From assembly GCA_002887195.1 (NCBI GenBank), contig PJAB01000637.1:1-22809 (forward strand): 22,809 nt of DNA, given 5' to 3'. Both the position numbers and the translations under genes were made by a program. Every line of letters starts with the position of its first letter. The first letter of the stretch is position 1. The notes beneath the pieces were generated by a model, which was not told the origin of the DNA, ran no database searches, and worked only from the letters and a program-made list of their open reading frames with translations. Of this stretch, positions 3,246 to 22,809 are shown in pieces. The DNA comes from Chrysochromulina parva. Its lineage: Eukaryota; Haptophyta; Prymnesiales; Chrysochromulinaceae.

Positions 3246-5117
3246 ATGGCACAGCGCCCGCTCGCCCCGTGGCTGGTGACGCCTCTGAAGCCGTGCTCGA
3301 TCGTCCTCGAGCGTCATACGCACAAGAATGGTGGCAGTACGCTGCGCCACATCGTGAATACCAACGACATGTTGGACGGCTGGGGCTTTTGGGGTTATGG
3401 ACTGCACCAGCACTGGCAGGTGACTGACACGCTGACGGGCGCGCTGCTGGGCCCGCGCAACGCGAGCTGCTCGGACTGGGATCGCCGCGCACCGTTTCGC
3501 CTCTTCGCGGAGCACCACTACTCGCGCATGGGCATGCGCACGATCCTCGCCGCGTTTGGGCCCACGTCGCCGTTGCAGCAGGTCGCACTCCGCTGCCAGT
3601 GCACCGTGGTGCTCGTGACGCGGCTGCGCGAGCCGACGTCTTACTACGTCTCCTTCTACCGCTGGACAGTCTCGTGGCGTCAGGCGCGCAACTCGACCCT
3701 CTTCGGCGCGACCATTCTCGACTGGGCGCCGCGCAACTTGCAGAGCTCGATCATGCTGCGTCCGATCGATGCGACTTGGGCCGAGTTCCTGGGCGTGAAC
3801 ACGAAAGATGGGCAGGCGAAGCGCCGGGAGTACTCGCAGTTCGACGACGCGCCCGGCCCCGATGGCCAGCTGCCACCTGGGGCCACGGTCGCCCGCCGCC
3901 CTGGCGAGGGCGCCAAGCAGCGTGCCCTGCTGCGCTCCCTCCTCTCCTCTTTTGACCTGGTGGGCCTGATGGAGCGGTTTGACGAGACGCTGCTGCTGCT
4001 GGCAGACCTGACTGGTTTGCAGCGGCTGCTGCACATGCGCGCGGTGCCAGGCACCACCAACCCGCACTACGCGCAGCCGTCGGTCTCCGCCGTGTGCCCG
4101 GACCCAGCCGCGTGCGACGCGCGTATTCGTGAGGTCGCGCCCTTCGATCACGAGCTCTACGCGGCCTTCTCGGCGGCCTTCGCGGCCAAGGTGTCCGCGC
4201 TGGGCGCGCCGTTCCAAGCGCGGCTCCGCGCCTTCCGGCAGGCCAACGCCGCGTACCAGTCGCAGACGCTGCGCGCACGGGCCGAGCGGATCGCCGCGGC
4301 GAAACGGTCGGGCGCTGAAGACGACTTTGACGGCGAGGAGCTGCTTCGGGTCGTTGCTCGCCATCGCTCGTCGCCGACGCAGATGCACAGCCGGGTGCCG
4401 ATGAGCCGGCTGCACTGCCCAGTTGGGGGCAGCAGCCCCATTGCGTTGGAGGCGTGCCAGCGCATTTTTGCCGACACGCCATTCCGCTTCAACTGGCGCC
4501 ACACGCGCGCCTCGTGCTGTCAGCACATCCACGCGTGCTTGGCCATCCGCATGGCACGCCGCAGGCTACCCACGCACTGCTACCACTGGCTGCCGGAGGT
4601 GGGCGACCCGCGCAACGAGCGTGCCGTGCGAGGCCCTGGGTACGACGCCATGGCCAAGGCCATCAATGAGTCACTTCCCACGATCTGCGACACGGAGTGC
4701 TCACTGCCGCCCGACGTGGAGCCGCCGTTTGCGCCCGCGCCGTACCGTGTGCCGAGCGCCGCGGAGAGTGCCGTGCGCGCGTCCACGTTCGCGAAGCCCG
4801 TGCGCGACAGGCTGCGCCCGCTGACCTTCGAAGCGATTGGATGTAACGACACGCCGCCCGAGGTGCTCGCTTTCGGGAGCCCGTGGGCCGACTTTGCTGG
4901 GTGCGAGGCTGAGGGCAACTCGGCCGCGAACCTGCACGACAAGCAAGGCCCCTGCGCCACCTCGTCGTGGATGCGCACCAACTGCAAGAAGACGTGCGGC
5001 CTGTGCGGGCTCACGCTGCGGCAGGTGCTCGAGCTCTCGCCGGCGGGGGCGCTGCGCCAGGCGCGCAAGGCGGCGAAGAGGCGCGGGGTGCGTGCTGACG
5101 GAAAGGACACAGGGTGA
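3246..5117 (+). CDS. Sulfotransferase-like protein with C-terminal ShK-like domain
   Basis: A single open frame of 623 codons; TAA lies in frame 12 bp upstream of the ATG. Residues 24-34 (HTHKNGGSTLR) match the PAPS 5'-phosphosulfate loop of carbohydrate sulfotransferases (HxPKTGGTSLR-type). Residues 126-140 (RLREPTSYYVSFYRW) match the 3'-phosphate-binding 'REPxSRxxSxY' motif. This suggests transfer of sulfate from PAPS to a glycan or protein-linked sugar, normally in the Golgi lumen. Residues ~540-587 form an ShK-like module: cysteines at 553, 580, 584 and 587 with the ending CKKTCGLCG and a preceding WM motif, typical of extracellular or secretory proteins. A second Cys/His-rich patch lies near residues 400-450. 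A transmembrane anchor is expected for such an enzyme but absent, and the P-loop sits only 23 residues from the start, so an upstream exon encoding a signal anchor may be missing. Confidence 0.8.
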   Translation: MAQRPLAPWLVTPLKPCSIVLERHTHKNGGSTLRHIVNTNDMLDGWGFWGYGLHQHWQVTDTLTGALLGPRNASCSDWDRRAPFRLFAEHHYSRMGMRTILAAFGPTSPLQQVALRCQCTVVLVTRLREPTSYYVSFYRWTVSWRQARNSTLFGATILDWAPRNLQSSIMLRPIDATWAEFLGVNTKDGQAKRREYSQFDDAPGPDGQLPPGATVARRPGEGAKQRALLRSLLSSFDLVGLMERFDETLLLLADLTGLQRLLHMRAVPGTTNPHYAQPSVSAVCPDPAACDARIREVAPFDHELYAAFSAAFAAKVSALGAPFQARLRAFRQANAAYQSQTLRARAERIAAAKRSGAEDDFDGEELLRVVARHRSSPTQMHSRVPMSRLHCPVGGSSPIALEACQRIFADTPFRFNWRHTRASCCQHIHACLAIRMARRRLPTHCYHWLPEVGDPRNERAVRGPGYDAMAKAINESLPTICDTECSLPPDVEPPFAPAPYRVPSAAESAVRASTFAKPVRDRLRPLTFEAIGCNDTPPEVLAFGSPWADFAGCEAEGNSAANLHDKQGPCATSSWMRTNCKKTCGLCGLTLRQVLELSPAGALRQARKAAKRRGVRADGKDTG

Positions 5118-8300: not shown

Positions 8301-11057
8301 GAGACGGCGCCGCCGACGGCGACGGCGGCAAGGCGGGCGGTGCTGGCGCCGGTACGCGCGGGGGCAAGGGCAAGGGCGCGGCGGCCTTCGCCCGACAACA
8401 AATGCTCGAGAACCTAGGTGGGGATGTGCCCTCCGGCATGTCTGCGAATGCGGAGCTGCGGGAGGAGCTGCGGCGCGTCCGCGCGGAGAATGAGCGGCTG
8501 CGGCTCGAAAAGGAGAAGCTGCTCGCCGGAGACGCCGACGAGATGTCGATCTCGATCTCGGCTGCAGCTCGCGCGGCCGCGGAGCGAGCTGCAGCCCCAG
8601 CGACGGCCAAAGGCGGCGACGAGGCCGGTGCGCCCGCGCCGCGCCTCGGCAAAGGCGAAGCGTTCGCCAAAGGCAAGGGCGGGCGGCTCGCCGAGGCGCC
8701 CGCGACGGCGCTCGACGCCGAGGGCAAGGTCGGTGCGTTCCTTGGCAAGGGCAAGGGCGGCAGGGGTGGCAAGGGCGTGACGGGCGGCGCGCCCGCCACG
8801 TGGCAGGTGCGCTGAGTGCCTCTGATGACCGCTGATTGCCCCTGATGACCGCTGATGACCGCTGATGACCGCTGATGACCGCTGATGACCGCTGATGACC
8901 GCTGATGACCCTCTGCCACGTGGCAGGAGTGGCTCAAGCAGGCCGACACGCTCGCGCTCACCGAGGCGCGTCGGCGCGTCGAGGATGGCACCTTGCCGCC
9001 GGTGGACGGGGCGGCGGCCGCCGTGCCCGGTACGGCGCCATCCGTTAGCGCCGTACCGGGCGCCAAGGGTTTCGTCAGAGGCGCGAAAGGCCTCGGGCTG
9101 CACTCGGCGCCAACGGCCGTCGAAACGGCCGCCCAGAACGGCGCGGTGCCCAAGGGAGGGCCCAAGAGTGCCCGGTACGGCGCCTCGTCGGAGGCGCCGG
9201 CCTCGAGCGCCGTCACGAGCGCCGCCGCCGAGGCGTCGGTGTCGACAGGGAAAGGTGCCAAGGGTGCGGGCAAGGGAGTTGGCAAAGGTGTGGGCAAAGG
9301 ACTGATGGTGGGCGCCGTGCCGGGCGCCGCCAACACCGCCCCGGCAGCGCCGGCCGCCGCCACCGAGGCAGCGCCGCCCCCTGCCAACCCCTGGGCGGCT
9401 GGCACTGTGAACATCAAGCTGAAGAAGCCCACAGCGAGCTCGCGACTTGGGATCACACTCAAGGGGAACAGCCAGAGCGCGCCGACGATCTTAACGGTCG
9501 TGCCGGGCTGCATCGCCGCCGAGTCGGGCGAGATCCTGCCTGGGCAGCTCCTGGTTGCTGTGAACGGCGAGGCGATCCTAGGGCACGATCATGGCTCCCA
9601 GGTGATGGCCTGATTGCATGTGATTGCATGTGATTGCATTGATGGCATGTGATTGCATGTGATTGCATGTGATTGCATGTGATTGCCTCCCTCATTAGGG
9701 CACGATCATGGCTCCCAAGTGCTACGCCCGGCACGGCGCCCGTCATGAGTCCTTTCCCCACACCTTTGCCCTCACCCTTGCCCACACCCTTGCCTCCCAG
9801 GTGCTACGCGCCGCCGTGGGCGTCATCCGGCTCACCCTCTCGTCCGCCGTGTACGATATCAGCGCCGAGACAGAGCCCAACACGGCGCCCGTGCCTGAGC
9901 CCGCGCCGGAGCCCAACACGGCGCCAGGTGCTCGGCACAGCGCCGCGCCCCCCGCGCCATCGGCGCCGCGCCCATCGGCGCCACGTCCGTCGGCACCGCG
10001 AAGCTCAGCACAGCGCCCGCACAACGCCCCGGCCGGTGCCAAGGGGTCGTCGATGCATGCAAGTGCTCATCACAACGCCCCGGCGGGTGCCAAGGGGTCG
10101 TCGATGCCAGGCAAGGGGAAAGGCAAGGGATTCGCGCGCAACGACGAGCACACGCAGGAGGTCGAAGCGGATGAGGAGGAGGAGGAGGTGGAGGAGGACG
10201 ACGAGGAGGACGAGGAGGACGAGCCTGCGTTCGCAGTGCGCTTGAGACGACGCGACGACGACGAAGAGGACGAGGACGGCGAGCAACCGTTTGACGAACA
10301 CGAGGACGACGACGACGACGAGGAGGAGGACGAGCCGGACGCGCGCGGAGGACGCACCAAGGGGCGGCGCGCCGTGTTGGGCGGCAAGGGGGGCGCCGTG
10401 TTGGGCGGCAAGGGGAGCGCCGCGAGCGCGAGCTTGGGCGCGAATGACCTTCGCCATCAGCTCGTCGGCAAGAAGGGCAAGGGGGCCAAGGCCGTTGCGG
10501 CCGCGGCCGTGGTCCGAGGGCTCGCCGCGGCGGTGGCTGCAGTCGAGGAGGTGTTTGACTGGGAGGCGGAGGCGGAGCTGGTGGAGCTGGCGGAGGTGGA
10601 GGCGGCGGAGGCGGCGGAGGCAGCGGAGGCGGGCGTGCCATCTGGGCACGCTGGGCCGCTGAAGACACTCGGGGCGGTGGCGGCCACACCATCACGGGGC
10701 GCGGTTTCGTCACGGGAGGCGGTTTCGTCACGGGGCGCGGTTTCGTCACGGGGGGCTGAGAGCGCCCCCCTCGAGGGCAGCGTCAGCGGCTCGCGGCCCG
10801 CGGCCCGCCTAGGGGTGAGCTTCTCGATCATCCCGACGAGCGCTTTCTCCCTCACGTCCACGATTGCCATCATCACCGTCGACGGCGCGGCCGGCGCCAA
10901 GGGAGGGGCTGGCAAGGGAGGTGCTGGCAAGGGCAAAGGCGGAAAGGGCAAAGGCGGAAAGGGAAAGGGCAAAGGCGCGGCCAAGGGCGCCGCCGCCAAA
11001 GGGGGCCGCGGCGGCGGCGGCGGCGGCCGCGGCGGCCAGGTGCGCTCGTTTGCGTGA
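5357..11057 (+). CDS. Low-complexity scaffold with PDZ domains (three exons)
   Basis: Model: join of 5357-8806, 8927-9601 and 9801-11057, ~1,793 residues, both introns phase 0. The N-terminus carries two copies of SLFTxEQL (residues ~2-9 and ~27-34), then two copies of a PDGxxxxLP hairpin-like motif (~74 and ~124). Residues ~333-460 are a Gly/Met-rich tract. PDZ 1 lies at ~774-870 (RLGITL, PGCLAAASG, LLVAVNGQ). A coiled coil follows at ~1031-1080 (ELREELRRVRAENERLRLEK). PDZ 2 (~1309-1393) is split by intron 2; joining the exons gives a domain tail of the same length as PDZ 1, which supports the splice choice. After an acidic Asp/Glu tract (~residues 1490-1550) comes a lone RLGVSF strand (~1710), a probable PDZ remnant, then Gly-Lys repeats. 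PDZ domains bind C-terminal peptides; an assembly-scaffold or condensate role is inference. I do not recognise an orthologue. Confidence 0.75.
6361..6735 (+). repeat. GGC/ATG-rich coding microsatellite
   Basis: A purine-biased GGC-rich tract encodes repeated GGGMGG units inside gene 3. It is in frame throughout, so it behaves as a coding repeat. The same tract gives long open frames on the other strand (Pro/Met and Ala/His), which are artefacts. Length polymorphism is likely. Confidence 0.85.
8807..8926 (+). other. Gene 3 intron 1, decamer array
   Basis: 120 nt, GTGCGC to CAG, phase 0. Nine decamers near GCTGATGACC fill 8821-8910. A 12-bp direct repeat GCCACGTGGCAG ends both the upstream exon (8795-8806) and the intron (8915-8926). 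The downstream frame resumes with EWLKQAD and stays open. The donor and acceptor fit GT-AG; exact boundaries are inferred. Confidence 0.75.
9602..9800 (+). other. Gene 3 intron 2, TGATTGCATG array
   Basis: 199 nt, GTGATG to CAG, phase 0, splitting PDZ 2. Eight units near TGATTGCATG lie at ~9611-9690. A 22-bp copy of the exon end (9579-9600) recurs perfectly at 9696-9717 inside the intron, and it continues into a degenerate copy of the next exon's start. The internal copy reads CCAAGTG instead of CCAGGTG, so its splice site is destroyed. The first 30 nt are identical to intron 2 of gene 4. Confidence 0.75.
10021..10110 (+). repeat. 51-bp coding tandem duplication carrying block B
   Basis: ACAACGCCCCGGC begins copies at 10021 and 10072 (period 51 bp, 17 codons). 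The joint between copies holds GCATGCAAGTGCTCATCAC (10055-10073), the same block B found in introns of genes 4 and 7. The reading frame stays open, adding a second NAPAGAKGSSM to the protein. It might instead be spliced (GTGCC at ~10036 to CAG at 10110), but nothing requires this. Confidence 0.65.
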
Positions 11058-11116
11058 GACATGAGAGGCGCGTGCCTAATATGGACGACCAGAGCCAGCA
11101 CGTGCACCAGCTCCAG

Positions 11117-11119
<3 letters not shown>

Positions 11120-11149
<30 letters not shown>
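11120..11149. repeat. CA dinucleotide microsatellite
   Basis: Fifteen uninterrupted CA units, 60 bp beyond the stop codon of gene 3. Confidence 0.95.
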
Positions 11150-11150
<1 letters not shown>

Positions 11151-12202
11151 CGGCAGAGCGACGCAGCAGCAGCAACGTGAGAGGAAACTCAACTTGCAGA
11201 GAGAGAGCGCGCGCGCCAAGTGCACATGAGACGGGGCGCCGGTGCGCGACGAGAGGCAGACTGATGGTGAACTCATGAACAAAGCGGAGGAGGGCGCCAA
11301 GCCCGCAGCCCGGGGTCAGGGGTGAATGCGAATGGAATGCTTGTGGAGTATAACCTAAACTGGCCAATGATATCGTTTTTTGCCGTGCTGGTCTATCCCC
11401 CTTTTAGCCTTTTTGAACCCCCGGCCTCTCGACGACGACGTTCGCGGGCATGCGCGATCTTGGGATTGCCGCATTTCAATGATTGCGGATTGGCCGGGTT
11501 AAGATTGGCGGTCTATGGCGTAGCGTGTGTTCTTCGCATCGGTTCTTCGTACGACGTCGTCAACGTCCGGTCATGCGTCATCGGACATCGCTGCCCACCC
11601 CCTCCACTCTATGGCTCGTTCTTAGCTCGTTCTCTGAATGTGGTACTGACTGTTCACGAATGCTTGCCCCCTGGCTTGCCCAATAGTATCTACGGGCAGC
11701 GAGCGGCAGGGCTGATCACGCGATAACCCTGTACGCTGTGCGCTGGGAGAGCCCGACGTGACGTTCTCACTAGCAACAATTGAGAATTGAGTACAGCCCA
11801 CGAGAGCGAGTACTAGAGACTTAGGAATTTCCTGACACCCCCGAGTCGCTTCAGATGTCATTGAAAGAACTTGTGTTTACCGGGGGTAGCGGAGCCGTCC
11901 TTTGAGACGGAGTGGGTGAGCGCGAGAGTGTTGTCTTGACAGAGACTGTCTTGTTTGGACACAGGCACCCATAAGTTTTGACTTCGTGAATATACGTGTT
12001 CGAGTAAAGGGGAGCTCGGAAGCTTAACCGTGTGCACTGGGGCGAGCACGGGCAGAGAGACGGACAGACCGAAAGAACTCCCTGCTGAATCCCAAAAACC
12101 CTAACGGACAAAACACGAGCCTAGAGAAACGGTCAGACGTTTCAGAGCCGACTAGTGAACATATGTCATATGAGGCTCGCTCACTGACGGACTTGACTTT
12201 GT

Positions 12203-12227
12203 TTGACTTGACTTGACTTGACTTGAC
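12203..12227 (+). promoter_or_regulatory. Five tandem TTGAC pentamers upstream of gene 4
   Basis: Five head-to-tail TTGAC units end 33 bp before the ATG of the OTU gene; another TTGAC lies at ~12193. TTGAC is the core of the plant W-box, but there is no evidence that a WRKY-type factor acts here. It may be a promoter element, a 5' UTR repeat, or a plain microsatellite. Confidence 0.4.
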
Positions 12228-12260
12228 TGAACTCGCGCAGGAAGTGCTCGCACTCTCAAC

Positions 12261-15200
12261 ATGGGGCGTGAGATGGAGCGGCTCGTGGCCGAGGGCGACA
12301 AGATCGGGTCCCTCGGCGACAAATCCAGCTTCTTAAACCCCGAGCGCCTCTATCAGCAGGCCGAGCACCTGCGCGTCGTCGCCTTCCAAAAGTACAATGC
12401 GAACACACTCGGCAGCCTAAAGGAGGCCTTTGTGTTCATGCTTCGCTTCGCAAAGTTCTACGAGACGATCAGCAAGGCCAATTCCATCAACAAAAAGTCG
12501 ACGGCGCACCTGAAACTCCAGCGCGACCTGTTATCGGTGGTCGACGCGCTCGAGGAGCTCAAACCACGGCTGACGAGGATGCTCAACGAGGCGGAGCCCG
12601 CGCCGCTGCCGGAGGCGGCGCCCGATGGCGACCAGTTTCGGATGGACATGATTGCGCAGCTCGAGCAGCGCTGGGCCAGCTTTAGGCCCAAGCCCAAGCC
12701 CAAGCTCAAGCCCAAGCTCAAGCCTGCGGCCGCCGCCGCGGCGGCTGGCGTGGCGGCCGCCGGCGTAGCGGCCGCCGGGGCAGGCGTAGCGGGTGTACCG
12801 CTCGTATTGGGGCGCGGCGATGCGACGGACGCCGCCTCGAGCATGGCTCCTGCTCGGGGAGTCTCAGCGCCGTCGCCGATGCCCGGAACTCCCTACGCCC
12901 TGCCGCCGAGCGCCCCGCCGCCACCCGCCGTGCTGTTCGCCAAGGGCGACGTGGTCCTCTATCACCCGGCTCAGGGTGCGCCGATCCCCGCCGAGGTCTT
13001 GGTGGTTCACAGCGACGACATGCCCCCGTACTACACGATTCGGTGCGAAGGCGTCGAGAAGCAGGTCGAGCAGCAGCAGCTCGCGTTGCCCACTACGGCG
13101 CTCGCACGGCCTCTGGCGGACCCGTATCAGCTGCCCACTACGGCGCCCTTGTTGCCCACTACGGCGCCCAAGTTGTCCACTACGGCGCCAAACGTGCCCA
13201 CTACGGCGCCCGACGTGCCCACTGGCGGCGACGCTGCGGACTTGGGCGCTGTCGTGAGCGCACCCATGGGCGGCGGCGCCGCAGAAGGGCCGTCGGCGTT
13301 CGCGCGACCCGACGAGCGCCGTAGTGGGCGACCCGACGAGCCGACGCCAACGCCGCCAACGCGGCCGGCGCCGACGCCGCCGTCGTACGAGTATGCGAAC
13401 ACCATGTATCCCAAGGTGGCCATCCCGATGGCCGCTATGCCCGCTGGAAAGATTGGTGGCAGCGCCGCCGCCGCCGCCGCCGCCGCTGCCGCCGCGGCGG
13501 GGACAAGGTCGGAGAGGCCGAAGAACTTTTGGGAAGACACGATTAGGCCAGACACGCTTGGTGGCGAGGGGCCTCACCACGCGAAGCCGCCAATAGCGAA
13601 GCCGCCAACGCGTGGGATCATGGCGCCCAACACAACGCGTGGGATCGTGGCGTCGGAGCCGTCGGCTGAGCTGCAGGTGACGAAGGCCATCTGAGTGCCT
13701 CTGAGTGCCTCTGAGTGCCTCTGAGTGCCTCTGAGTGCCTCTGAGTGCCTCTGAGTGCCTCTGAGTGCCTCTGAGTGCCTCTGAGTGCCTCTGAGTTCGT
13801 TTCCGTTGTGTGGCAAGTGCCTTGGAGTGCCTCGGATGACCTCTGATTGCGTCTGAATGACCTCTGATTGCGTCTGGATGACCTCTGATTGCGTCTGGAT
13901 GACCTCTGATTGCGTCTGGATGACCTCTGATTGCGTCTGGATGACCTCTGATTGCCCTCTCATCAGGCGCTGCGGGACCGCGTTAACAAGGCACGCGAAA
14001 AGGAAGCCGAGAAGCACCTGCCGCAGGACCCACGCTCTCGCCTCGCGCGCCACCTAGGGGTGCGCGGCTTCAAGATCAAGGACGTGCCCGGCGATAACAA
14101 CTGCCAGTTCCACGCGATCGCCGACCAGCTCGAGCAGGTGATGGCCTGATTGCATGTGATTGCATGTATTGAATTGATTGATTTGATTGCATGTGATTGC
14201 CCGCTGGAGCAGGTGATGGCATCTGATCGCCTGATTGCATGTGATTGCATATGATTGCATGTGATTGCCACTGATTGCGACGGATGGCGATGCTCGAGCA
14301 GGTGGGCTTGGGCGGCTATAATGCTCTCAAGCTTCGTCAAAAGGCGGTGCAATGGCTCAAGACGAATGGCAGTCGAGCGATGGATGATGGCAAGGTGATT
14401 GCATATGATTGCATGTGATTGCATGTGATTGCATTTGACGAATGGCAGTCAAGCGATGGACGATGGCAAGGTGATTGCCGCACGTTGCCTGGGGCTGCTC
14501 CCGAGAGCCCGAATGACCTTAATGACCTTAATGACCTTAATGACCTTAATGGGGCTGCTCCCGAGAGCCCCCGAGTGCCTCTCGTGCCTCACAGCGCCAG
14601 GTTTGGGCTGATTGCGTGATCCATCACCCGATTGCCATCACCTGATTGCGTGATCCATCACCCGATTGCCATCACCTGATTGCGTGATACATCACCTGAT
14701 TGCCATCACCTGATTGCGTGATCCATCACCCGATTGCCATCACCTCATTGCATGCCAGGTGGGCGAGCGATTCATGCTCAAGGATTCTGATTGCGTGATC
14801 CATCACCCGATTGCCATCACCCGATTGCCATCAGGTGGGCGAGCGATTCATGCTCAAGGATTCTGATTGCGTGATCCATCACCCGATTGCCATCACCCGA
14901 TTGCCATCAGGTGGGCGAGCGCTTCATGCTCAAGGATTCTGTGGGGGTGGACAATTGGCATGCGTACCTCGCCGAGATGGAGCAGCATGGGCGCACATGG
15001 GGCGATGAGGCGACCCTGCTCGCCATGTCGGTATGGCTTGATTGCCCCTCGACTGCGCCTCTGCATGCAAATAAAGTGCCCACCACGGTGCCCTCCGTCC
15101 CCGCAGGTGCTCTTTAAGGCCGAGATCTGCGTGATCTCGTCACTCTCCGAGGATTACTGCCACGTGGTCAAGCCGCCCGATGTGTGGAAAGTCGAGCTGC

Positions 15201-15265
15201 GCACGCGTCTCTACCTGGGGCACTTCGCCGAGTACCATTATGTGAGCACTCGGCCGGTCGGATGA
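12261..15265 (+). CDS. OTU-family deubiquitinase candidate (five exons)
   Basis: Model: 12261-13676, 13967-14137, 14302-14394, 14911-15030 and 15107-15265, 652 residues, all four introns phase 0. Residues ~25-115 (LYQQAEHLRVVAFQKYN, FVFMLRFAKFYETI) resemble the USP8/AMSH dimerisation domain (PF08969-like). Residues ~224-278 (GDVVLYHPAQG, DDMPPYYTIR) look like a small Tudor/KOW-like barrel seen in algal proteins. A TTAP-repeat, disordered linker follows. The OTU domain occupies ~500-646: GDNNCQFHAIADQL with catalytic Cys518, TWGDEATLLAMS, and AEYHY with catalytic His644, closely following the plant OTU order (DGNCQFRALADQL, WGDHVTLQAAAD, AEVHY). Catalytic residues look intact, so cleavage of ubiquitin chains is likely; linkage preference is unknown. 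The four introns cut the catalytic domain or its edge, and each exon junction restores the OTU alignment, which supports the model. Confidence 0.85.
13083..13222 (+). repeat. Coding repeat of CCCACTACGGCGCC
   Basis: Six imperfect copies of a unit containing CCCACTACGGCGC, mostly 18-24 bp apart, encode repeated PTTAP segments in the linker of the OTU protein. They are in frame. PTAP-like peptides recall ESCRT-I late-domain ligands, but PTTAP is not a strict match, so no function is claimed. Confidence 0.7.
13677..13966 (+). other. Gene 4 intron 1, two successive arrays
   Basis: 290 nt, GTGACG to CATCAG, phase 0. Ten perfect CTGAGTGCCT decamers (13691-13790) are followed by six ~21-bp units near ATGACCTCTGATTGCGTCTG (13836-13961). 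The last unit runs into the acceptor as GATTGCCCTCTCATCAG. The splice joins ...SAELQ to ALRDRVNKARE. The donor is the best GT near the end of the first exon, but it is not confirmed. Confidence 0.7.
14138..14301 (+). other. Gene 4 intron 2, TGATTGCATG array
   Basis: 164 nt, GTGATG to GAGCAG, phase 0, lying directly after the catalytic-cysteine segment. It starts with the same 30 nt as intron 2 of gene 3. GAGCAGGTG occurs at the donor, internally near 14206, and at the acceptor, so exon-end sequence has been copied into the intron. Joining gives ADQLEQVGLGGYNALKLRQK, a normal OTU continuation. Confidence 0.75.
14395..14910 (+). other. Gene 4 intron 3, complex duplicated intron
   Basis: 516 nt, GTGATT to CATCAG, phase 0. 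It contains a 42-bp copy of the preceding exon end (14361-14402 repeated at 14437-14478, two mismatches), a four-unit AATGACCTT array (14512-14547) flanked by perfect 20-bp repeats (14491-14510 and 14551-14570), a ~34-bp array (14609-14750), and two false copies of the next exon start (14759-14788, 14835-14864). Only the last acceptor keeps the OTU frame. Confidence 0.7.
14759..14940 (+). repeat. 76-bp tandem triplication over the exon 4 acceptor
   Basis: A 30-bp segment starting GTGGGCGAGCG occurs at 14759, 14835 and 14911, exactly 76 bp apart, each preceded by a CAG acceptor. The first two copies run into repeat sequence, and 76 is not a multiple of three. The third copy is the true exon start. 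Confidence 0.85.
15031..15106 (+). other. Gene 4 intron 4, short A+B intron
   Basis: 76 nt, GTATGG to CGCAG, phase 0, joining ...LLAMS to VLFKAEICVISS. It contains block A (CTTGATTGCCCCT near 15038) followed by block B-like sequence (GCATGCAAATAAAGTGCCCA from 15063). Without amplification it may resemble the founder intron. Confidence 0.75.
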
Positions 15266-15572
15266 GAACCGGAGGCGCCAGGCCAGCATGCAGGCCAGCC
15301 AGAGAAGCCGAGCAGAAGCATGGCACACGGCATGCCGCCGCTTTGCACATTGCAGTGCGTATTACTGCAGTACAAGTAAGTAGTACGTACATCTGACGTA
15401 CATTCGTTGTAGGCGTACACTGTTGCGGTAAACAAAAAGTCCTTAACGACTTATCTCTGCAATATTGGAGACTCACATCACATATTATGTAAGAAGTCCG
15501 GTCCTCCCTGTGACAGCCGACACTCTCACACTTCGATTTCGGATTTGGTCGGGGGTCCGATGCCATCGCGCG
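15266..15572. promoter_or_regulatory. Intergenic region between genes 4 and 5
   Basis: About 300 bp of lower-GC sequence holding the end of gene 4 and the promoter of gene 5. It has a small GTACGT/ACGTAC inverted pattern near 15383-15401. The ankyrin frame is open back to 15465, but only non-ATG codons occur before 15573. Confidence 0.4.
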
Positions 15573-16385
15573 ATGCGTTTTGAACGCGCGATTGCCCAGC
15601 AAAACCACGCAGCCTCTGAGTTTATCAAGCATGCATGCGAAACACAGCTCCCTTTCCTGGGGTGCACCGCAAAAACTGGAATTGGATCCTCGTGGGTCCA
15701 GGCAATGCTGAAGCTCGCTCACAGCCCGCGCGGCAGTGGCATCTCGGCTGTGCGCGCATTGAATAGGGAGGTGGTGAGCGCTACATCCGACGGTGACATT
15801 GTATACAGGACTAAGGTCGTCGCTCCGAGGCAGCAAGGGCTCATCGCCGCCACTGGAGAGCCGGCCTCGTTTGAGCAGCCTATGACCGGCGAGCAGCTCA
15901 TGTTGGAGATAGACCGCGGCAACCTGACCAAGGTACGTGTACTCTTGGCCTCGGGCGTACCTGCCGACACGTCCATGGATTCTGGTCAAAAGACGGCACT
16001 GATGCTCGCGGCTGAGCGAGGGCACGTGTCGGTGGCCAAGGAGCTCATCCTCAACGGAGCGGATCCGAATGGCACGTCGAAGCTCTTGGGCTTTACGCCC
16101 CTGATGGCCGCGGCCGCGTGGGGGCAGGCGGATGTCATCACACTGCTCATCTCCGCCGGCGCCGATGTCGACGCTAGGACGGTCACGGCGAACGCCGTCT
16201 CCGCCATCGACATCGCTCAGAAGCGAGGCCATGGAGAAGTCGTGCGGAAGTTGCTGATCGCCGGGGCAACTCTGCCCGCAATGGTAGATCCGACCTGGAG
16301 CGTCCTCGAGTTGGCCGCTTCGAATGCAACCCGACCACAGCGCGGCGAGGACGGACACAGCGGGGCAAGCTGTGTAATTCTTTGA
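15573..16385 (+). CDS. Ankyrin-repeat protein with C-terminal CaaX motif
   Basis: 270 codons from the first in-frame ATG. The N-terminal ~110 residues show no known domain. Residues ~112-240 form about four ankyrin repeats, clearest in GQKTALMLAAERGHVSVAKE with LILNGADPN, and LGFTPLMAAAAWGQADVITL with LISAGADVD. The last residues are CVIL followed by the stop: a CaaX box whose final Leu favours geranylgeranylation, so the protein is probably attached to a membrane. Ankyrin repeats bind partner proteins; no enzyme domain is visible. The gene is intronless in this model. The frame continues upstream without an ATG, so an extra 5' exon is possible. Confidence 0.75.
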   Translation: MRFERAIAQQNHAASEFIKHACETQLPFLGCTAKTGIGSSWVQAMLKLAHSPRGSGISAVRALNREVVSATSDGDIVYRTKVVAPRQQGLIAATGEPASFEQPMTGEQLMLEIDRGNLTKVRVLLASGVPADTSMDSGQKTALMLAAERGHVSVAKELILNGADPNGTSKLLGFTPLMAAAAWGQADVITLLISAGADVDARTVTANAVSAIDIAQKRGHGEVVRKLLIAGATLPAMVDPTWSVLELAASNATRPQRGEDGHSGASCVIL

Positions 16386-16755
16386 CGCCCTTACAATTGC
16401 TGTGACGCTGACGGGGGGACCGCGTACAAATAGGAAGGTCCTTCCTAAGTCTTCCCCGGTCGCAAATTGATTCTTGAAAACAGGGGACTCAAATATTTCA
16501 CTGTCAATCTCGGTTCTTGCTTCGTGTCGTGCTCGCATCGGCTTTGCCTTTGGGGGGTTTGGCTTTATCGCATCGCAGTTGGTCTTTTCATACACAATTT
16601 CTAGGCCCAGGTACAGCTGTAGTCCATGCAGGTGGTCAGAATACACCCGGAGTTGAGGCTGAACCGCGACGAAACTGTCTACTTTCTGACGAAACTGTCT
16701 TTCACACGTGGCGCAACCTTAGCAACCGAAATCCCCAAAGCGGTGTTGTCGCATC
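16386..16755. promoter_or_regulatory. Promoter region of gene 6
   Basis: 370 bp without a supported gene. It contains a 13-bp direct repeat GACGAAACTGTCT at 16668-16680 and 16688-16700, start to start 20 bp. The second copy overlaps the TCTGACGAAAC 11-mer shared with the gene 2 upstream region. The repeat lies 56-88 bp upstream of the ATG. Confidence 0.5.
16668..16700 (+). repeat. 13-bp direct repeat upstream of gene 6
   Basis: Two perfect copies of GACGAAACTGTCT spaced 20 bp start to start, about two helical turns. A protein-binding site is possible but untested. Confidence 0.7.
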
Positions 16756-19272
16756 ATGCGTCCGGGGCCGCGGACAATGCAGCATAGCTTCCGCGCGTTG
16801 TCGAGCAGTGTCAAGGGCTTGACCCTGCTGAAGCAGGACTCGGCGCTCGGTTCGGAGACTTGCGCCTCCTGTGACAGCCCCAGCGCGGCGCCACCAACGG
16901 TTGCCGCGAACAGCGCAGACTGTTCAGAAGAACTCGAGAAGCTGCGCAAGGATGTCGAACGGCTCAATGCCGACAATGAGCAGCTCCATGGAGACAATGA
17001 GCAGCTCAATGCAGACATCGAGCGGCTGAGGGACGAGGTCGAGAGATTAAGGGGTGAGAACAAACAGTTGAACGAGCGGCTGCGGTTCTATCCGCGGCAA
17101 GGAGTCTCCGAGTGGCTCTCGTTGTTCATGCACTTGCAACCAGCCGGAGAAAAAGCCGAGAAGGCCGTCGCCGCTGGCGAGGAGCGAAAAGCGGCGGCGA
17201 CGGCGCTTGAATATACGATGGCCGCATTCACACCGGAGGTTGTCGAGGCGCTCGCAAGGCTCGAGCACTCCAATCGGAGTGTGCGTAGGGAGGCGGTCTC
17301 GACTCTTGGCCAGCTTGATGCGGCGACGCTCGCTCCGCACGCGCCCGCGCTCGTCGCAAGGCTCGAGGACTCCGATTGGGATGTGCGTGAGGCGGCGGTC
17401 TCGACACTTGGCAAGCTGAATGCGGCGACGCTCGCTCAGCACGCGCCCGCGATCCTCGCAAGGCTCGAGGACTCCGTGTGGAGTGTGCGTAAGGCGGCGG
17501 TCTCGACTCTTGGCCAGCTGGATGCGGCGACGCTCGCTCAGCACGCGCCCGCGATTCTCGCAATGCTCGAGGACTCCGAGACGGATGTGCGTGAGGCGGC
17601 GGTCTCGACTCTTGGCCAGCTGGATGCGGCGACGCTCGCTCCGCACGCGCCCGCGCTCGTCGCAAGGCTCGAGCACTCCGAGTCGGGTGTGCGTAAGGCG
17701 GCGGTCTTGACACTTGGCAAGCTGAATGCGGCGACGCTCGCTCAGCACGCGCCCGCGATCCTCGCAAGGCTCGAGGACTCCGATTCGGGTGTGCGTTGTG
17801 CGGCGGTCTCGACTCTTGGCAAGCTGGATGCGGCGACGCTCGCTCAGTACGCGCCCGCGCTCCTCGCAAGGCTCGAGGACTCGGATTCTGATGTGCGTAC
17901 GGCGGCGGTCTCGACTCTTGGCAAGTTGAATGCGGCGACGCTCGCTCAGCACGCGCCCGCGATCCTCGCAAGGCTCGAGCACTCCGAGACGGACGTGCGT
18001 AAGGCTGCGGTCTCGACTCTTGGCAAGCTGAATGCGGCGACGCTCGCTCAGCACGCGCCCGCGATCCTCGCAAGGCTCGAGGACTCCGTGTGGAGTGTGC
18101 GTAAGGCGGCGGTCTCGACTCTTGGCAAGCTGGATGCGGCGACGCTCGCTCAGCACGCGCCCGCGATTCTCGCAATGCTCGAGGACTCCGATTGGCACGC
18201 GCCCGCGATCCTCGCAAGGCTCGAGCACTCTGATTCGGATGTGCGTACGGCGGCGGTCTCGACTCTTGGCAAGCTGGATGCGGCGACGCTCGCTCCGCAC
18301 GCGCCCGCGCTCGTCGCAAGGCTCGAGCACTCCGATTGGGGTGTGCGTTGTGCGGTGGTCTCGCTTCTAGGCAAGCTGGATGCGGCGACGCTCGCTCAGC
18401 ACGCGCCCGCGATCCTCGCAAGGCTCGAGCACTCCGAGTCGGGTGTGCGTAAGGCGGCGGTCTCGACTCTTGGCAAGCTGAATGCGGCGACGCTCGCTCC
18501 GCACGCGCCCGCGCTCGTCGCAAGGCTCGAGGACTCGGATTCGGATGTGCGTTGTGCGGCGGTCTCGACTCTTGGCCAGCTGGATGCGGCGACGCTCGCT
18601 CAGCACGCGCCCGCGATCCTCGCAAGGCTCGAGGACTCCGTGTGGAGTGTGCGTTGTGCGGCGGTCTCGACTCTTGGCCAGCTGGATGCGGCGACGCTCG
18701 CTCAGCACGCGACCGTGCTCGTCGCAAGGCTCAAGGACTCCGATTGGCATGTGCGTTGTGCGGCGGTCTCGACTCTTGGCCAGCTGGATGCGGCGACGCT
18801 CGCTCCGCACGCGCCCGCGCTCGTCGCAAGGCTCGAGGACTCCGATTGGGATGTGCGTGAGGCGGCGGTCTCGACTCTTGGCCAGCTGGATGTGGCGACG
18901 CTCGCTCAGCACGCGCCCGCGCTCGTCGCAAGGCTCGTGCACACCTATTGGAGTGTGCGTGAGGCGGCGGTCTCGACTCTTGGCCAGCTGGATGCGGCGA
19001 CGCTCGCTCAGCACGCGCCCGCGCTCGTCGCAAGGCTCGAGGACTCCGATTCGGGTGTGCGTTGTGCGGTGGTCTCGACTCTTGGCCAGCTGGATGCGGC
19101 GACGCTCGCTCAGTACGCGCCCGCCCTCGTCGCAAGGCTCGAGGACTCCGTGTCGAGTGTGCGTAAGGCTGCGGTCGCGACTCTTGGCAAGCTGAATGCG
19201 GCGACGCTCGCTCAGCACGCGCCCGCGCTCGTCGCAAGGCTCGAGGACTCCGATTCGAATCTCAGGGCTTAA
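16756..19272 (+). CDS. Coiled-coil HEAT-like repeat protein
   Basis: 838 codons in one exon. Residues ~58-112 form a strong coiled coil (EELEKLRKDVERL, NEQLHGDNEQLNADIERL). From residue 181 there are 19 tandem units of 34 residues (102 bp), consensus VSTLGxLxAATLAxHAP then A(I/L)(L/V)ARLExSxxxVRxAA, preceded by a partial unit at ~157-180. The pattern (helix, VR, helix) is HEAT/PBS-lyase-like, giving a superhelical protein-binding surface. Units are nearly identical at DNA level; variation is concentrated at unit positions 27-29 and 32. Unit 9 (18112-18255) is 48 residues, the product of two units with 20 residues lost. The coiled coil suggests dimerisation. No localisation signal is seen and no partner is known. 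Confidence 0.85.
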   Translation: MRPGPRTMQHSFRALSSSVKGLTLLKQDSALGSETCASCDSPSAAPPTVAANSADCSEELEKLRKDVERLNADNEQLHGDNEQLNADIERLRDEVERLRGENKQLNERLRFYPRQGVSEWLSLFMHLQPAGEKAEKAVAAGEERKAAATALEYTMAAFTPEVVEALARLEHSNRSVRREAVSTLGQLDAATLAPHAPALVARLEDSDWDVREAAVSTLGKLNAATLAQHAPAILARLEDSVWSVRKAAVSTLGQLDAATLAQHAPAILAMLEDSETDVREAAVSTLGQLDAATLAPHAPALVARLEHSESGVRKAAVLTLGKLNAATLAQHAPAILARLEDSDSGVRCAAVSTLGKLDAATLAQYAPALLARLEDSDSDVRTAAVSTLGKLNAATLAQHAPAILARLEHSETDVRKAAVSTLGKLNAATLAQHAPAILARLEDSVWSVRKAAVSTLGKLDAATLAQHAPAILAMLEDSDWHAPAILARLEHSDSDVRTAAVSTLGKLDAATLAPHAPALVARLEHSDWGVRCAVVSLLGKLDAATLAQHAPAILARLEHSESGVRKAAVSTLGKLNAATLAPHAPALVARLEDSDSDVRCAAVSTLGQLDAATLAQHAPAILARLEDSVWSVRCAAVSTLGQLDAATLAQHATVLVARLKDSDWHVRCAAVSTLGQLDAATLAPHAPALVARLEDSDWDVREAAVSTLGQLDVATLAQHAPALVARLVHTYWSVREAAVSTLGQLDAATLAQHAPALVARLEDSDSGVRCAVVSTLGQLDAATLAQYAPALVARLEDSVSSVRKAAVATLGKLNAATLAQHAPALVARLEDSDSNLRA
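17296..19269 (+). repeat. 102-bp coding tandem repeat, 19 units
   Basis: Units start at 17296 and every 102 bp to 18112, then resume at 18256 and continue every 102 bp to the final shortened unit at 19174. The frame is never broken. Units 1 and 15, and units 2 and 8, encode identical 34-residue peptides, so blocks have been copied within the array. Confidence 0.92.
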
Positions 19273-19760
19273 GACTGCAATCTTTACTGTAATGCCGAGG
19301 GCGCGCGCCATCCCTTAGAGCACTTTCGTTACTTAAGCGGAACGTCGCCGTCGGCCCGCGTCGGCCTCGCGCTCGCCGTCGTGCGTGCGTTCTCCGCGAT
19401 GTCGACCGTGCGCTGGTGGGCATACCGTTACGTTACGGGCACGCCACGGACGGCGTTTATCTATATAGTACGGAGCTATATCTTTCGGTACTCTCGACTG
19501 AGTAACGTGTACGACGTTTCACGTTAAGCCAAGAGTCGAACACTCGCTGAGTAAGCAGTAACGTGTCCGAAAGGCCCATGCCGAAAGGCTGTGCGCACGC
19601 GCGGCGGACCAGTGTACTCTACGTTCCCACATGCTGCAGGAATCCACATGCTACTCCGTATACCGTGCCTTCTCGTCTGTTGGGCTCACAACCTCAGGCC
19701 GGAGGCGCTCGGCCTCGTCCCGTGCCAGCGTCCGCCGGTGGCGTCTCCTTTTGGACCAAA
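19273..19760. other. Convergent intergenic region, 3' UTRs of genes 6 and 7
   Basis: No gene is supported. It is lower in GC, with a small hairpin (ATATAG at 19463-19468 pairing with CTATAT at 19476-19481) and paired AGTAACGTGT copies (near 19501 and 19557). Both neighbouring genes terminate here. A plus-strand frame from 19578 runs into a repeat array and is not credible. Confidence 0.45.
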
Positions 19761-19781
19761 TTAGGTGGCTTCGGCCGGTGC

Positions 19782-19880
19782 TGGTCTGCCCACGTCCGGC
19801 GGTCATCAATGGTCATCAGTGGTCATCAGTGGTCATCAGTGGTCATCAGTGGTCATCAGTGGTCCGCCCGCGTCCGGCGG
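19782..19880 (-). repeat. Decamer array flanked by 21-bp repeats at end of gene 7
   Basis: Read on the gene 7 strand, about six CTGATGACCA units (19803-19860) sit between two copies of a 21-bp segment (19860-19880 and 19782-19802, two differences). The array supplies the in-frame TGA at 19836-19838. No GT donor precedes it, so it is not an obvious intron. Confidence 0.75.
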
Positions 19881-21444
19881 CAGCGTCTTCTTCTTGCCTA
19901 AGGGGAGCTTGCGCACGAAGGAGCTCGCGACCATCATAGCGTTGACCGAGGACTGGATGGCCTGCCCCATCTCCTTGAACGCGGAGCTCTGCAGTGCAGT
20001 GAACCCGTTGGCGATGCACACGCGTGTGAAGGCGTCGCGATTGACCGGTAGCGTGAGCGGCGCACCCCCAACATCGGGTGCAAGGGAGAGGCGCTCAGAG
20101 GCGCGTTTGCTCGCGTTCGGGGCTCCGGCGGCGCCAGCCGGCTGTGAATCCCTTCCCATCTCATGAATGAGTCGGCTAGCGTCCGCCTAATGAGGGGTGC
20201 AATCAGGGAAGCACTCAGAGGCACCCCGAGGCACATACGGGAACTCATGAGGTCATCACTCCCCAATGAATCCACTCGGTCGTACCGGCGCAAAGGGAGC
20301 GTCATCAGTCGTCATCAGTCGTCATCAGTCGTCATCAGTCGTCATCAGTCGTCATCAGTCGTCATCAGTCGTCATCAGTCGTCATCAGTCGTCATCAGTC
20401 GTCATCAGTCGTACCGGCGCAAAGGGAGCGTCGAGCTGCTTGAGAAGTGTCTTGACTGCCTCGGCAGGCAGCTGGCCGTTGGCCGTGAGCTCCGCGATGG
20501 CGGTGGCGGCCTTAGCGGCGGCCACCTTGGCTGCGGGATCCTTGGCCAGGTCAATGTCCTTGGCGGCTTGGGTGGCCACATCAGCGCGTGCCTGGTCGAA
20601 GCGAGCGCGAAGCAGCTGGGCCGTGCGCGCCATCTCGGCGGAATAGAGACGCATCACCACGAGCATATACTCGTACACCTGCGCTCGATCAAGGGGAAGG
20701 CCATCAGAGGCAAGCAGGGGCAATCAGAGGCAAGCAGGGGCAAGCAGAGGGTGGGGGGCCCAGAGGGTACCCATGAGGCGCGCTCACCTCGACGCGCAGG
20801 TCGATCTTCTGAAGCCCTTTGGCGAGCTCGTGGAAGTCAATGGTGCCGCTGTGGTCGGTGTCGATGATGGTCATCAGCCGCTCGACTTGAGAGACGCTCA
20901 GACATCCCTCGAGCTCCTGCGGGGCATGCAATATCGCGCCGTCGTGAGCACTTGCATACGAACTCGCGCCGTGGTGAGCACTTACATGCGATCTCGCGCC
21001 GTGATGAGCACTCGCATGCGATCTCGCGCCAATCCGTCGCACTCAGCGATCATCACGCCATGGCACTCAGCGATCCTTCTCAGCGCGCGCTCATCACACC
21101 TGCACGCCCTTGACGAACTCGGAGGGGTCGATCTCCCCATCGCCATTCGTATCGAGCAGGTGGAAGAGCTCCCTCAAGGAGAGTCCACGACGCGAGAGGG
21201 CGCGTAAGACCTTGTTCTGCACGAGGGCCTCGTCGCGTCGCTGGAGCACCTGTGCAAAAGGGAGCACGGCGCCGTGGTGAGCACTTGCATGCACGAGGGC
21301 TTCGTCGCGTCGCTGGGAGCACCTTCTCCTTCTCGTCGGTCCCCTTTTGGTCGAGGACTTCGAGGCCCTGCCGGTCGTGCAGCATCGAGTGCAGCGACGA
21401 TGCGAGTGCAGGCTCCAGACCCGCGTACAGCTCGCTGTCGGCGG

Positions 21445-21477
<33 letters not shown>

Positions 21478-22809
21478 CGGCGGAGGAGCGGGCGGCGGAG
21501 GCGGCGGAGGAGGGCGCAGCGACCGTACATCCACTGAGTCGGGCGGACACGTCGGCCTTGGCGGCAGCGACGCCCGCGGCGCCAGCCTTGGCGCTCGACT
21601 CACCGGCGGCCATCATGGAACTGAACCGTTTCGAGTACTCGATAATCTCGTTCGGCAGGCGCACGAGATCCTCGATCTCGAGCGTCGCCTTCGCGATGTC
21701 GGGCGCGCGCGCGTTACGGAACTCGTTGCGCATCAGCTCGACGGCGCGGTCGATTGGTAGCCAAATCGAGCTGTCCTCCGACGTGCGCTCGTCGCCGCCC
21801 GCCGCGCGCACCGCCTTGCGCTCAAAGTCCAAAAAGAACTGGAGCGTCGCCGGAGCAGGTCGAGAGCGCTGTGGTGAGCACATGCATGCAAGGTCGGTCA
21901 TCAGAGGCAATCAACGCTGCCTCACCTGGAGCGTCGTCGGCTCGCGCATCGTGAGTGACGTGTCGCCCAAAAAAGGGAAGTAGCCCGCGAAGGCGCCGAA
22001 GAGGAAGGTGCGGCGTGAGCCGGCGACGGTGGAACTCTTCACGCCCTCTCGGAACTGCTGCAGGTGCTTGCTCGCTATCTGATGGATCCCGTGGCGCTGG
22101 GAGTACCAATCAAGCACGAAGGCGCCGAGCTCCACCTTGGTCCGATGCTCGAGCTCGTCGACGGCATCCCGCTTGAGCTTCGCGTCGTACATGATGCGGA
22201 TCGTCGAGTGCACCACAGCCCCTTGCAGCCGAAGAACACCTTCGCCGCCGCTGCCCAGAGACAGAGCCTTCTTCTGACCTTTCGGATTGTAGCTGCGCAC
22301 ATCTGACCGGTAACGTCCCTTGCGCCCACCACGGCGCTCCGCTCCGCCGCCGCTGCTCGCCTCCTCGCCCTCGAGATCGAATCTGGAGGTGCCGAGATCG
22401 AGATCGAATCTCTCCTCCTCGCCCTCGACGCCCTCGTCGTCGCCCTCCTCCTCGCCCTCCGCACCTCCAGATTCGATCTCGAGCACCGCACCTCCAGATT
22501 CGATCTCGACCTCGTCCACCTGGGTGCCCACGTCGGCGCGCGCGTCGGCGCCAGCGCCCTCCTCATCGGCGCCCGCGACGGCGCCATCCTCCGCTCCGAG
22601 CGTCATGAGCAGCCGCTGCATGTACGCGTCGCCCATCTGCGCGGCGAGGTGCTTCTTGAGCTTCTCGAGGACCCGTCGCTGCTTGCGCTCCTCATCAAGC
22701 TCAGCCTCGAGACGCTCCACCATATCGTCCTCGATTAGCCGCAGCGTATTCTGACGATGCAGCCCAGGCGGTGCCCCAGGCGCGCTGCTGGCGCTCAGAC
22801 CGCCGCCCT
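19836..22809 (-). CDS. EF-hand protein, six exons in window, 5' end missing
   Basis: Model, minus strand: >22809-21926, 21838-21323, 21249-21100, 20916-20788, 20678-20415, 20186-19836; 763 residues in the window, five phase 0 introns. The frame is open to the window edge, so the start lies outside. The first exon has a coiled coil (MVERLEAELDEERKQRRVLE), an acidic tract with repeated IESGGA, then an unrecognised well-ordered region (TIRIMYDAKLKRDAVDELE, FGAFAGYFPFLGDTSL) continuing into exon 2 (IWLPIDRAVELMRNEF), followed by an Ala-rich linker. Exons 3 and 4 encode a paired EF-hand with loops DTNGDGEIDPSE and DTDHSGTIDFHE; both have the acidic positions needed for Ca2+ binding. The C-terminal exons are Ala-rich helices and a basic KKK end. 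A calcium-sensing cytoskeletal or flagellar role is possible but not shown. The acceptor of the last exon (20187) is ambiguous; CACAG near 20146 is an in-frame alternative. Confidence 0.7.
20187..20414 (-). other. Gene 7 intron 5, CTGATGACGA array
   Basis: 228 nt, GTACGA to CATTAG, phase 0. Eleven 10-bp units (20301-20410 on plus as GTCATCAGTC) are bounded by two perfect 25-bp copies of exon-end sequence (20408-20432 and 20279-20303). The intron end reads GATTGCACCCCTCATTAG, nearly the same as sequence inside intron 2 of gene 3 (9681-9698). Confidence 0.65.
20679..20787 (-). other. Gene 7 intron 4, block A array
   Basis: 109 nt, GTGAGC to GCGCAG, phase 0, joining ...KIDLRVE to VYEYMLVV. Five decamers of the CTGATTGCCC/CTGCTTGCCT type lie near its 3' half. 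No block B. Confidence 0.7.
20917..21099 (-). other. Gene 7 intron 3, 30-bp block B array
   Basis: 183 nt, GTGTGA to CCGCAG, phase 0, between the two EF-hands. On the gene strand, block A-like GATCGCTGAGTGC occurs twice, then three 30-bp units (plus coordinates 21001-21030, 20971-21000, 20941-20970), each carrying GCATGCRAGTGCTCAYCAC or a near variant, and a partial fourth. Confidence 0.75.
21250..21322 (-). other. Gene 7 intron 2, made of an exon copy plus block B
   Basis: 73 nt, GTGCTC to ACAG, phase 0. Its first ~33 nt are a near copy of the first 32 nt of the following exon (GTGCTCCAGCGACGCGACG...), followed by block B at 21271-21293. Joining gives DEKEKVLQRRDEALVQ. This is the clearest signature of intron birth by tandem duplication of an exon segment. 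Confidence 0.75.
21839..21925 (-). other. Gene 7 intron 1, short A+B intron
   Basis: 87 nt, GTGAGG to CCAG, phase 0. The order is block A (TTGATTGCCTCTGATGACC) then block B (GCATGCATGTGCTCACCAC, within 21869-21890). CGACGCTCCAG ends both the upstream exon and the intron. Joining gives MREPTTLQFFLDFERKAV. Confidence 0.75.
22373..22507. repeat. 20-bp inverted and direct repeats inside an exon
   Basis: GAGATCGAATCTGGAGGTGC at 22373-22392 is present as its perfect reverse complement at 22461-22480 and 22488-22507. On the coding strand one orientation encodes EIESGGA and the other GTSRFDLE, both in frame, within the acidic tract of gene 7. Confidence 0.85.

Follow-up and report, generated by a model that had tools for sequence, protein, structure and literature searches.

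The origin of new introns is a long-standing question, and many characterised introners, families of similar introns dispersed among unrelated genes, resemble DNA transposons. Terminal inverted repeats are a feature of some introner families. In the survey of Gozashti et al. (2022), a Chrysochromulina sp. MAG is among the introner examples, and duplications of 3-9 bp are given for previously characterised families and of 4 bp for Chrysochromulina sp. (PMC9860276). That survey required similarity near both splice boundaries and discarded low-complexity families. Introners of Amoebophrya carry direct repeats of 3-5 nt together with inverted repeats and show much non-canonical splicing (PMC7789003). 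Intron gain by double-strand break repair and tandem genomic duplication is reviewed in PMC3443670, and Rogers and Bendich (2025) interpreted as insertion scars the direct repeats, 4-30 bp long with a mean of 11.4, that lie on or close to intron borders (PMC11782384). These statements apply to the sections of each paper covered here.

The window analysed here is the whole of a 22,809-nt contig (C637) of Chrysochromulina parva, from a genome of 45.07 Mb in 2,199 contigs. The GC content is 63.7% in 200 kb made up of 20 regularly spaced 10-kb regions, similar to the value published for C. tobin (63.4%, genome of 59 Mb), and Prymnesium records are among the protein relatives of one window gene. 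Eleven introns are predicted in genes 3, 4 and 7 of the window (two, four and five, respectively; Table 1), and two sequence blocks, termed A and B, recur in them. Re-annotation gave the same counts as the original prediction, with A-type heptamers in ten of the eleven introns (all except gene 7 intron 2) and B in four (gene 4 intron 4, where it is diverged, and gene 7 introns 1, 2 and 3). The two short introns said to carry A and then B are gene 4 intron 4 and gene 7 intron 1. The B count excludes three further introns in which TGATTGCATG units loosely resemble B. Each A array is on the same strand as the coding sequence of its gene. Both blocks had been described as missing from the intronless genes of the window, which needs amending for A in that single heptamers occur in two of these genes (670 and 16140), at the background level of single matches. 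Genes 3 and 4 likewise have single exonic heptamers (7802 and 12649), again at the rate of single matches.

Table 1. Predicted introns of genes 3, 4 and 7 and an exonic B remnant, with their repeats (positions in the window).
Feature	Positions	Strand	Make-up	Duplicated or repeated sequence	Domain interrupted
Gene 3 intron 1	8807-8926	+	A-decamer array; own GT; CAG taken from duplicated exon end	Exon end GCCACGTGGCAGG, 8795-8807 and 8915-8927	
Gene 3 intron 2	9602-9800	+	Array of TGATTGCATG	Direct repeat of 26 bp, 9579-9604 and 9696-9721, 25 identical	PDZ
Gene 3 exon, B remnant	10057-10070	+	In frame, between direct repeats	Direct repeats of 37 bp, 10020-10056 and 10071-10107, period 51	
Gene 4 intron 1	13677-13966	+	Decamers of CTGAGTGCCT, then 21-mer array; end CTCATCAG		
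Gene 4 intron 2	14138-14301	+	A arrays	Exon end GCTCGAGCAGGTG, 14128-14140 and 14292-14304	OTU
Gene 4 intron 3	14395-14910	+	Composite, with a 9-mer array	Nested copies of left exon end and right exon start (76-bp higher-order repeat); 21-bp repeats flanking the 9-mer array, 14490-14510 and 14550-14570	OTU
Gene 4 intron 4	15031-15106	+	Short A-then-B element; own GT and CAG		OTU
Gene 7 intron 1	21839-21925	-	Short A-then-B element	Exon end CCGRCGACGCTCCAG, 15 bp, 14 identical	
Gene 7 intron 2	21250-21322	-	B element; end CACAG; 5' splice site from duplicated exon start	Exon start GTGCTCC..., about 30 bp	
Gene 7 intron 3	20917-21099	-	Three B 30-mers		Junction within EF-hand pair
Gene 7 intron 4	20679-20787	-	A-type units		
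Gene 7 intron 5	20187-20414	-	A decamer array adjoining an A 3' module that ends in CTCATTAG	25-bp repeats flanking the array, 20279-20303 and 20408-20432	

The blocks are scattered through the whole genome, well beyond what chance would give. Counts that take in tandem copies gave 1,686 matches to a B 19-mer with up to two mismatches and, with up to three, 1,791 to a B 24-mer, 7,794 overlapping matches to an A 20-mer and 3,343 to the 20-mer at the A 3' end (GATTGCCTCCCTCATCAGGT, the A 3' module), each against 0 in the reversed control. The pattern CTGATTGCCC occurs 506 times and its reversed form 13 times. The short founder with A followed by B, which had been postulated from the window, is found as GTACGTTGATTGCCACTGATGACCTGCCTTGCATGC (GTACGT-A-B) in 104 genome copies with up to three mismatches against 0 in the control, and all ten founder copies that were fetched continue into B, with one of them (locus L163) stopping partway inside it. 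Both the dispersal of the family and the existence of a founder are thus upheld. In the 20 spaced regions there are 17 A clusters, as opposed to 0 in reversed sequence, and an acceptor-like word lies within 70 nt downstream of 14 of the 17 and upstream of 7, the value for random positions being 0.19.

Direct repeats of exon sequence flank many of these elements. Loci were chosen by exact or near-exact motif among the matches listed; the first among these matches supplied 80 B loci (exact 24-mer) and 40 A loci (exact 20-mer), and 8 further A loci were added later, giving 128 in total. A direct repeat scoring at least 13 is present at 61 of the 80 B loci, versus 4 of 316 chimeric null pairs, and absent from the other 19. 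An anchored test fixed the right copy at the base following the AG of the insert (70 B loci, as ten had no CAG within 60 nt). In this test, 48 of 70 B loci and 22 of 40 A loci exceeded the 99th percentile of the null, and 42 and 15, respectively, exceeded its maximum. This leaves 18 of the 40 A loci at or below the 99th percentile and 25 at or below the maximum, and an older age may explain the B and A loci without a repeat signal. A first, cruder flank-alignment test had placed 23 of 40 B loci and only 6 of 20 A loci above the 99th percentile of its null. Near repeat pairs of all kinds numbered 95 versus 3 at a far distance, where the control covers about 60% of the start positions. The association also holds in 200 kb not picked for B, which contain eight B matches with up to six mismatches (reversed control, 0); all seven with up to five mismatches lie between direct repeats of 18-35 bp. 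No flanking direct repeat was found for the eighth, which has six mismatches.

At the 66 anchored loci scoring at least 11 the repeat is 11-59 bp long (median 24.5), the two copies are identical in 23, and the period modulo 3 is divided 24/22/20. Across all 128 loci, a version of the analysis run without a null found a repeat scoring at least 13 in 92. Of these repeats, 53 begin at the AG boundary (-5 to 0) and extend beyond it, 15 begin after it, and the remaining 24 are tandem, nested or other; at some loci the repeats are copies of a tandem unit rather than insertion scars. Among maximal exact repeats in the unselected 200 kb (61 two-copy pairs, both strands), GT/AG starts account for 8 pairs and other combinations for up to 17, many of the pairs having the appearance of coding repeats.

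The elements fall into two classes that are mirror images of each other with respect to which splice site lies in the insert. In the 3' class, the left copy of the duplicate starts with GT at 56 of the 66 anchored loci. At 44 anchored B loci, 13-27 nt separate the core from the AG and 36 of the inserts end in CCACAG, while the 5' side is ragged, with 0-34 nt between the duplicate and the core (GCATGC) at 39 of the 44. The 5' class comprises eight of the ten founder loci. Here each exon copy finishes in AG, and the insert between them has GTACGTTGATTGCC or GCACGTTGATTGCC as its 5' part, then whole or partial B, then a ragged end. Against a null maximum of 9.5, six of these eight loci score higher and two the same; for all ten founder loci the figures are seven above, two equal and one below. 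Of the two loci outside the class, L167 has a significant repeat with a different geometry and L168 has none. Few elements with an exact 5' side also end in CCCCACAG within 20-50 nt (5 of 77), as compared with 49 of 80 exact B loci at a similar distance (Fisher p 6e-14, for sets picked by different motifs). By eye, the classes tend to differ inside B, with CACAGCGC in the 5' class versus CACGGCGC in the 80 B loci, which had been chosen for CACGGCGC, and based on this difference the two classes may be separate lineages. Four loci of the usual geometry (L044, L075, L126 and L120) have left copies that start with CT, AC, GA and GC, respectively, and are possible cases of non-canonical donors. At L162, L165, L167 and L168 the 5'-class insert has ...GGTTCTCG or GGCTCTCG as its last bases, and CTCG opens the right duplicate or lies close to its start, a possible junction homology.

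Protein domains are continuous across the predicted junctions. With the predicted introns removed, gene 4 encodes an OTU domain that spans three junctions (35.8 bits, cut-off 23.3), gene 3 without intron 2 encodes a PDZ domain that spans one (32.3 bits, cut-off 23.2), and the EF-hand pair of gene 7 encloses one (49.3 bits, cut-off 30). The gene 4 product aligns without gaps to MMETSP transcript protein P0029 at the three OTU-domain junctions, and likewise to four further relatives. Excised products from ten other loci gave a Pfam match in nine cases and none in one; six of the matches enclose the junction and three do not. Five of the six (UCH, Melibiase_2, Pyr_redox_2, Fn3-like and Gelsolin) are above the curated cut-off, and the sixth, Kinesin, is below it and comes from a locus without GT-AG. 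Since the domains differ between loci, the similar introns sit in unrelated genes. Open frames after excision were found at 25 of 43 loci, versus 20 and 20 for two shifted joins and 18 for the antisense, a test that discriminates poorly, probably because stops are few in a GC-rich genome. Domain homology argues that the GT-AG loci are probably spliced.

The preferred reading, to which we assign a probability of about 0.8, is that these elements are introner-like mobile introns formed through a staggered break and the recruitment of one splice site. Branch points follow the consensus yUnAy, and on that basis the conserved part would be a short module with a likely branch point, CTGAT in A and CTCAC in B (where the adenine is 23-37 nt from the AG, median 28), with a pyrimidine-rich tail after it in the 3' class. 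A staggered break in a gene would receive a copy of the element, and fill-in of the overhangs would leave about 11-59 bp of exon on either side. The insert would usually supply one splice site, its other end having been lost. In the 3' class, the insert would end in CACAG or CATCAG and directly abut a duplicate that starts with GT, and with such a duplicate right next to the insert the GT of the left duplicate would serve as the 5' splice site. For the 5' class, the insert would start with GTACGT, immediately downstream of an exon whose last bases are AG, and the 3' splice site would come from the AG that closes the right duplicate. Splicing in either class would take out one duplicate along with the insert, so that the mRNA would be unchanged and the intron would often be part element and part duplicated exon. 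A copy with both sites would retain the duplicate in the mRNA and is probably selected against, which offers a testable reason for the one-ended copies. Spliceability may therefore act as a filter on break, fill-in and end loss, and so produce the observed geometry; selection by itself could account for exact GT or AG ends. Growth of decamer arrays and of tandem units of a whole intron would come later. Under this reading, two mirror-image routes complete an intron around one branch-point-like module, and half-element introns are numerous in this single genome, many with intact insertion scars (the 23 identical pairs among 66), so that each locus may reveal its target, how wide the stagger was and perhaps its donor.

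Compared with introners as described in the covered parts of PMC9860276, the elements share dispersal as similar introns in unrelated genes and recruitment of a splice site from a duplication. They differ in the length of the duplication (11-59 bp and variable, median 24.5, rather than 3-9 bp) and in combining both modes of recruitment around one core with minisatellite growth. Similarity near both splice boundaries is absent, as one side is locus-specific duplicated exon (starting with GT at 56 of the 66 anchored loci). Since neither a short duplication nor similarity at both boundaries is found, the elements are best placed as introner-like and outside the families described there. Half-exon introns would probably escape the survey, to judge from its published criteria, which suggests that a survey demanding similarity at both splice sites has overlooked families of this kind. 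The routes reviewed in PMC3443670 likewise involve exon direct repeats at intron borders and the use of duplicated splice-site-like sequence; as described in the sections covered they have no tie to a repeated insert family, whereas here one core lies between the repeats. The 213 introns of Rogers and Bendich are of many kinds and, in the parts covered, have no common insert (PMC11782384), while the repeats reported here are longer, belong to one family and were tested against chimeric nulls. Amoebophrya also has repeated introns with direct repeats at their borders in a protist, the differences in the portion covered being the long repeats and mostly GT-AG splice sites found here (PMC7789003). 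Introners with long variable duplications are not described in the covered portions of the literature, mostly non-subscription (including PMC12768974, PMC12480563 and PMC4580454).

The copying route could involve DNA or RNA. Repair of a staggered break by microhomology-guided template switching could copy a piece of intron from elsewhere, the outcome being a tandem duplication plus a patch, with spliceable outcomes retained by selection. This is a serious candidate, held at a little under even odds. It accommodates truncation at either end, the probable in-frame exonic insertions that lack splice sites, and the composite nested introns of gene 4 and L150. Short words common to junctions (GCTCACCA at L163, CGGCGCC at L037 and GGCGCC at L069), as read by eye, would also fit if they exceed chance, but one core at high copy number would require a strong donor bias. 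Alternatively, and more tentatively, excised intron RNA may be reverse transcribed at a nick, as in target-primed reverse transcription of LINEs and SINEs. Such a route predicts duplications of variable length, as seen, with one exact and one truncated end, and the 3' class, exact at the AG and ragged on its 5' side, has this form. The 5' class, however, is exact at its 5' end and truncated at its 3' end, the opposite of what target priming gives; a constant 3' end with 5' truncation is thus found in the 3' class and reversed in the 5' class, and simple retroposition with a fixed 3' end is set aside as the sole model. The insert of L110 carries GAGGTGGAG, which is duplicated exon in L041, and an 18-mer containing it is exact in the assembly only at L041 (twice) and L110. 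This shared exon-derived 9-mer suggests copying of a whole intron, but it is a single case, spotted by eye, and the match requires a 10-nt gap. Among left extensions common to B copies, two pairs score above 9 (L032/L118 and L104/L106) and L041/L110 scores 8 ungapped. RVT_1 matches in the genome number at least five; so low a count may weigh against the RNA route. That excised intron RNA is itself the mobile form, recopied into staggered breaks with at least one exact spliceosomal end and the other site borrowed, is less likely than not; were it so, introns would multiply near the scale of retrotransposons without the usual transposon.

An introner of the DNA-transposon type would need an unusual transposase that makes long and variable target duplications. 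Recruitment of a splice site from a target duplication is known in introners, but the 3-9 bp of earlier characterised families (PMC9860276, in the parts covered) contrast with the 11-59 bp and ragged ends found here, which makes this origin improbable. It is also conceivable that tandem duplication of exon segments holding AGGT created the introns and that the blocks are later, convergent minisatellites. AGGT or CAG|GT lies within the duplicate at some loci (L014, L016 and L024), but AG precedes the left copy at only 30 of the 66 anchored loci, so that a duplicated AGGT does not generally supply both sites, and insert sequence common to dispersed loci lies between the copies; this explanation has very little probability. 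A viral reservoir of the blocks was rejected, the exact B 19-mer being found in one viral contig and the exact A 3'-end 19-mer in none.

Some copies appear to be kept in exons. The blocks occur outside introns too, and by appearance a small share of the B copies are in-frame exonic insertions. GT-AG excision is possible at 40 of the 61 B loci with a duplication, where the period modulo 3 is divided 12/14/14; among the other 21 the period is divisible by 3 in 15, versus 12 of the 40 (p 0.003). Judged from the sequence, the 21 seem to include both diverged or non-canonical introns and translated insertions, the latter as at the B remnant in the exon of gene 3 (Table 1).

Later enlargement of the founder into decamer arrays, also predicted originally, is supported, and the decamer arrays are secondary growth. 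The duplicate and the insert are repeated as one unit of 76 bp at 14710-14941 of the window, and twice in tandem at L041. In an alignment of 409 columns, 34 of them gaps, an environmental contig (L089) is 90.5% identical to L150 of the genome itself, or about 370 matches among 375 aligned bases. They also differ by indels, of 20 nt within the decamer array and of 14 nt where a B intron has its left duplicate, indicating that arrays vary between sources. The account of the family given originally, with dispersal, a founder and later growth, therefore stands as far as it goes; it had overlooked the flanking duplications, the mirror classes and the introns that are part exon. L089 (1-4554) is a contig from a viral collection (IMGVR_UViG_3300027760_000958) whose last 375 or so bases match L150; its last 355 bases were the part searched against the whole algal genome. 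The rest of L089 has no match to L150 and its ORFs have a phage-like look on inspection, so the contig is possibly a chimera of assembly.

A decamer array of GGTCATCAGT at 19801-19864 (-), close to the 3' end of gene 7, lies, by eye, between imperfect repeats of about 20 bp. It adds stops and has no clear splice sites, and may only alter the C-terminus. The intronless gene at 16756-19272 (+) encodes 838 amino acids, largely in near-identical 102-bp units, and the first 324 residues match HEAT and coiled-coil-type families. Another intronless gene, at 3246-5117 (+), encodes a 623-residue protein with weak matches to Gal-3-O-sulfotransferase and ShK, both below cut-off, and a protein 97% identical to it over 84% of its length is present in ENA-derived data.
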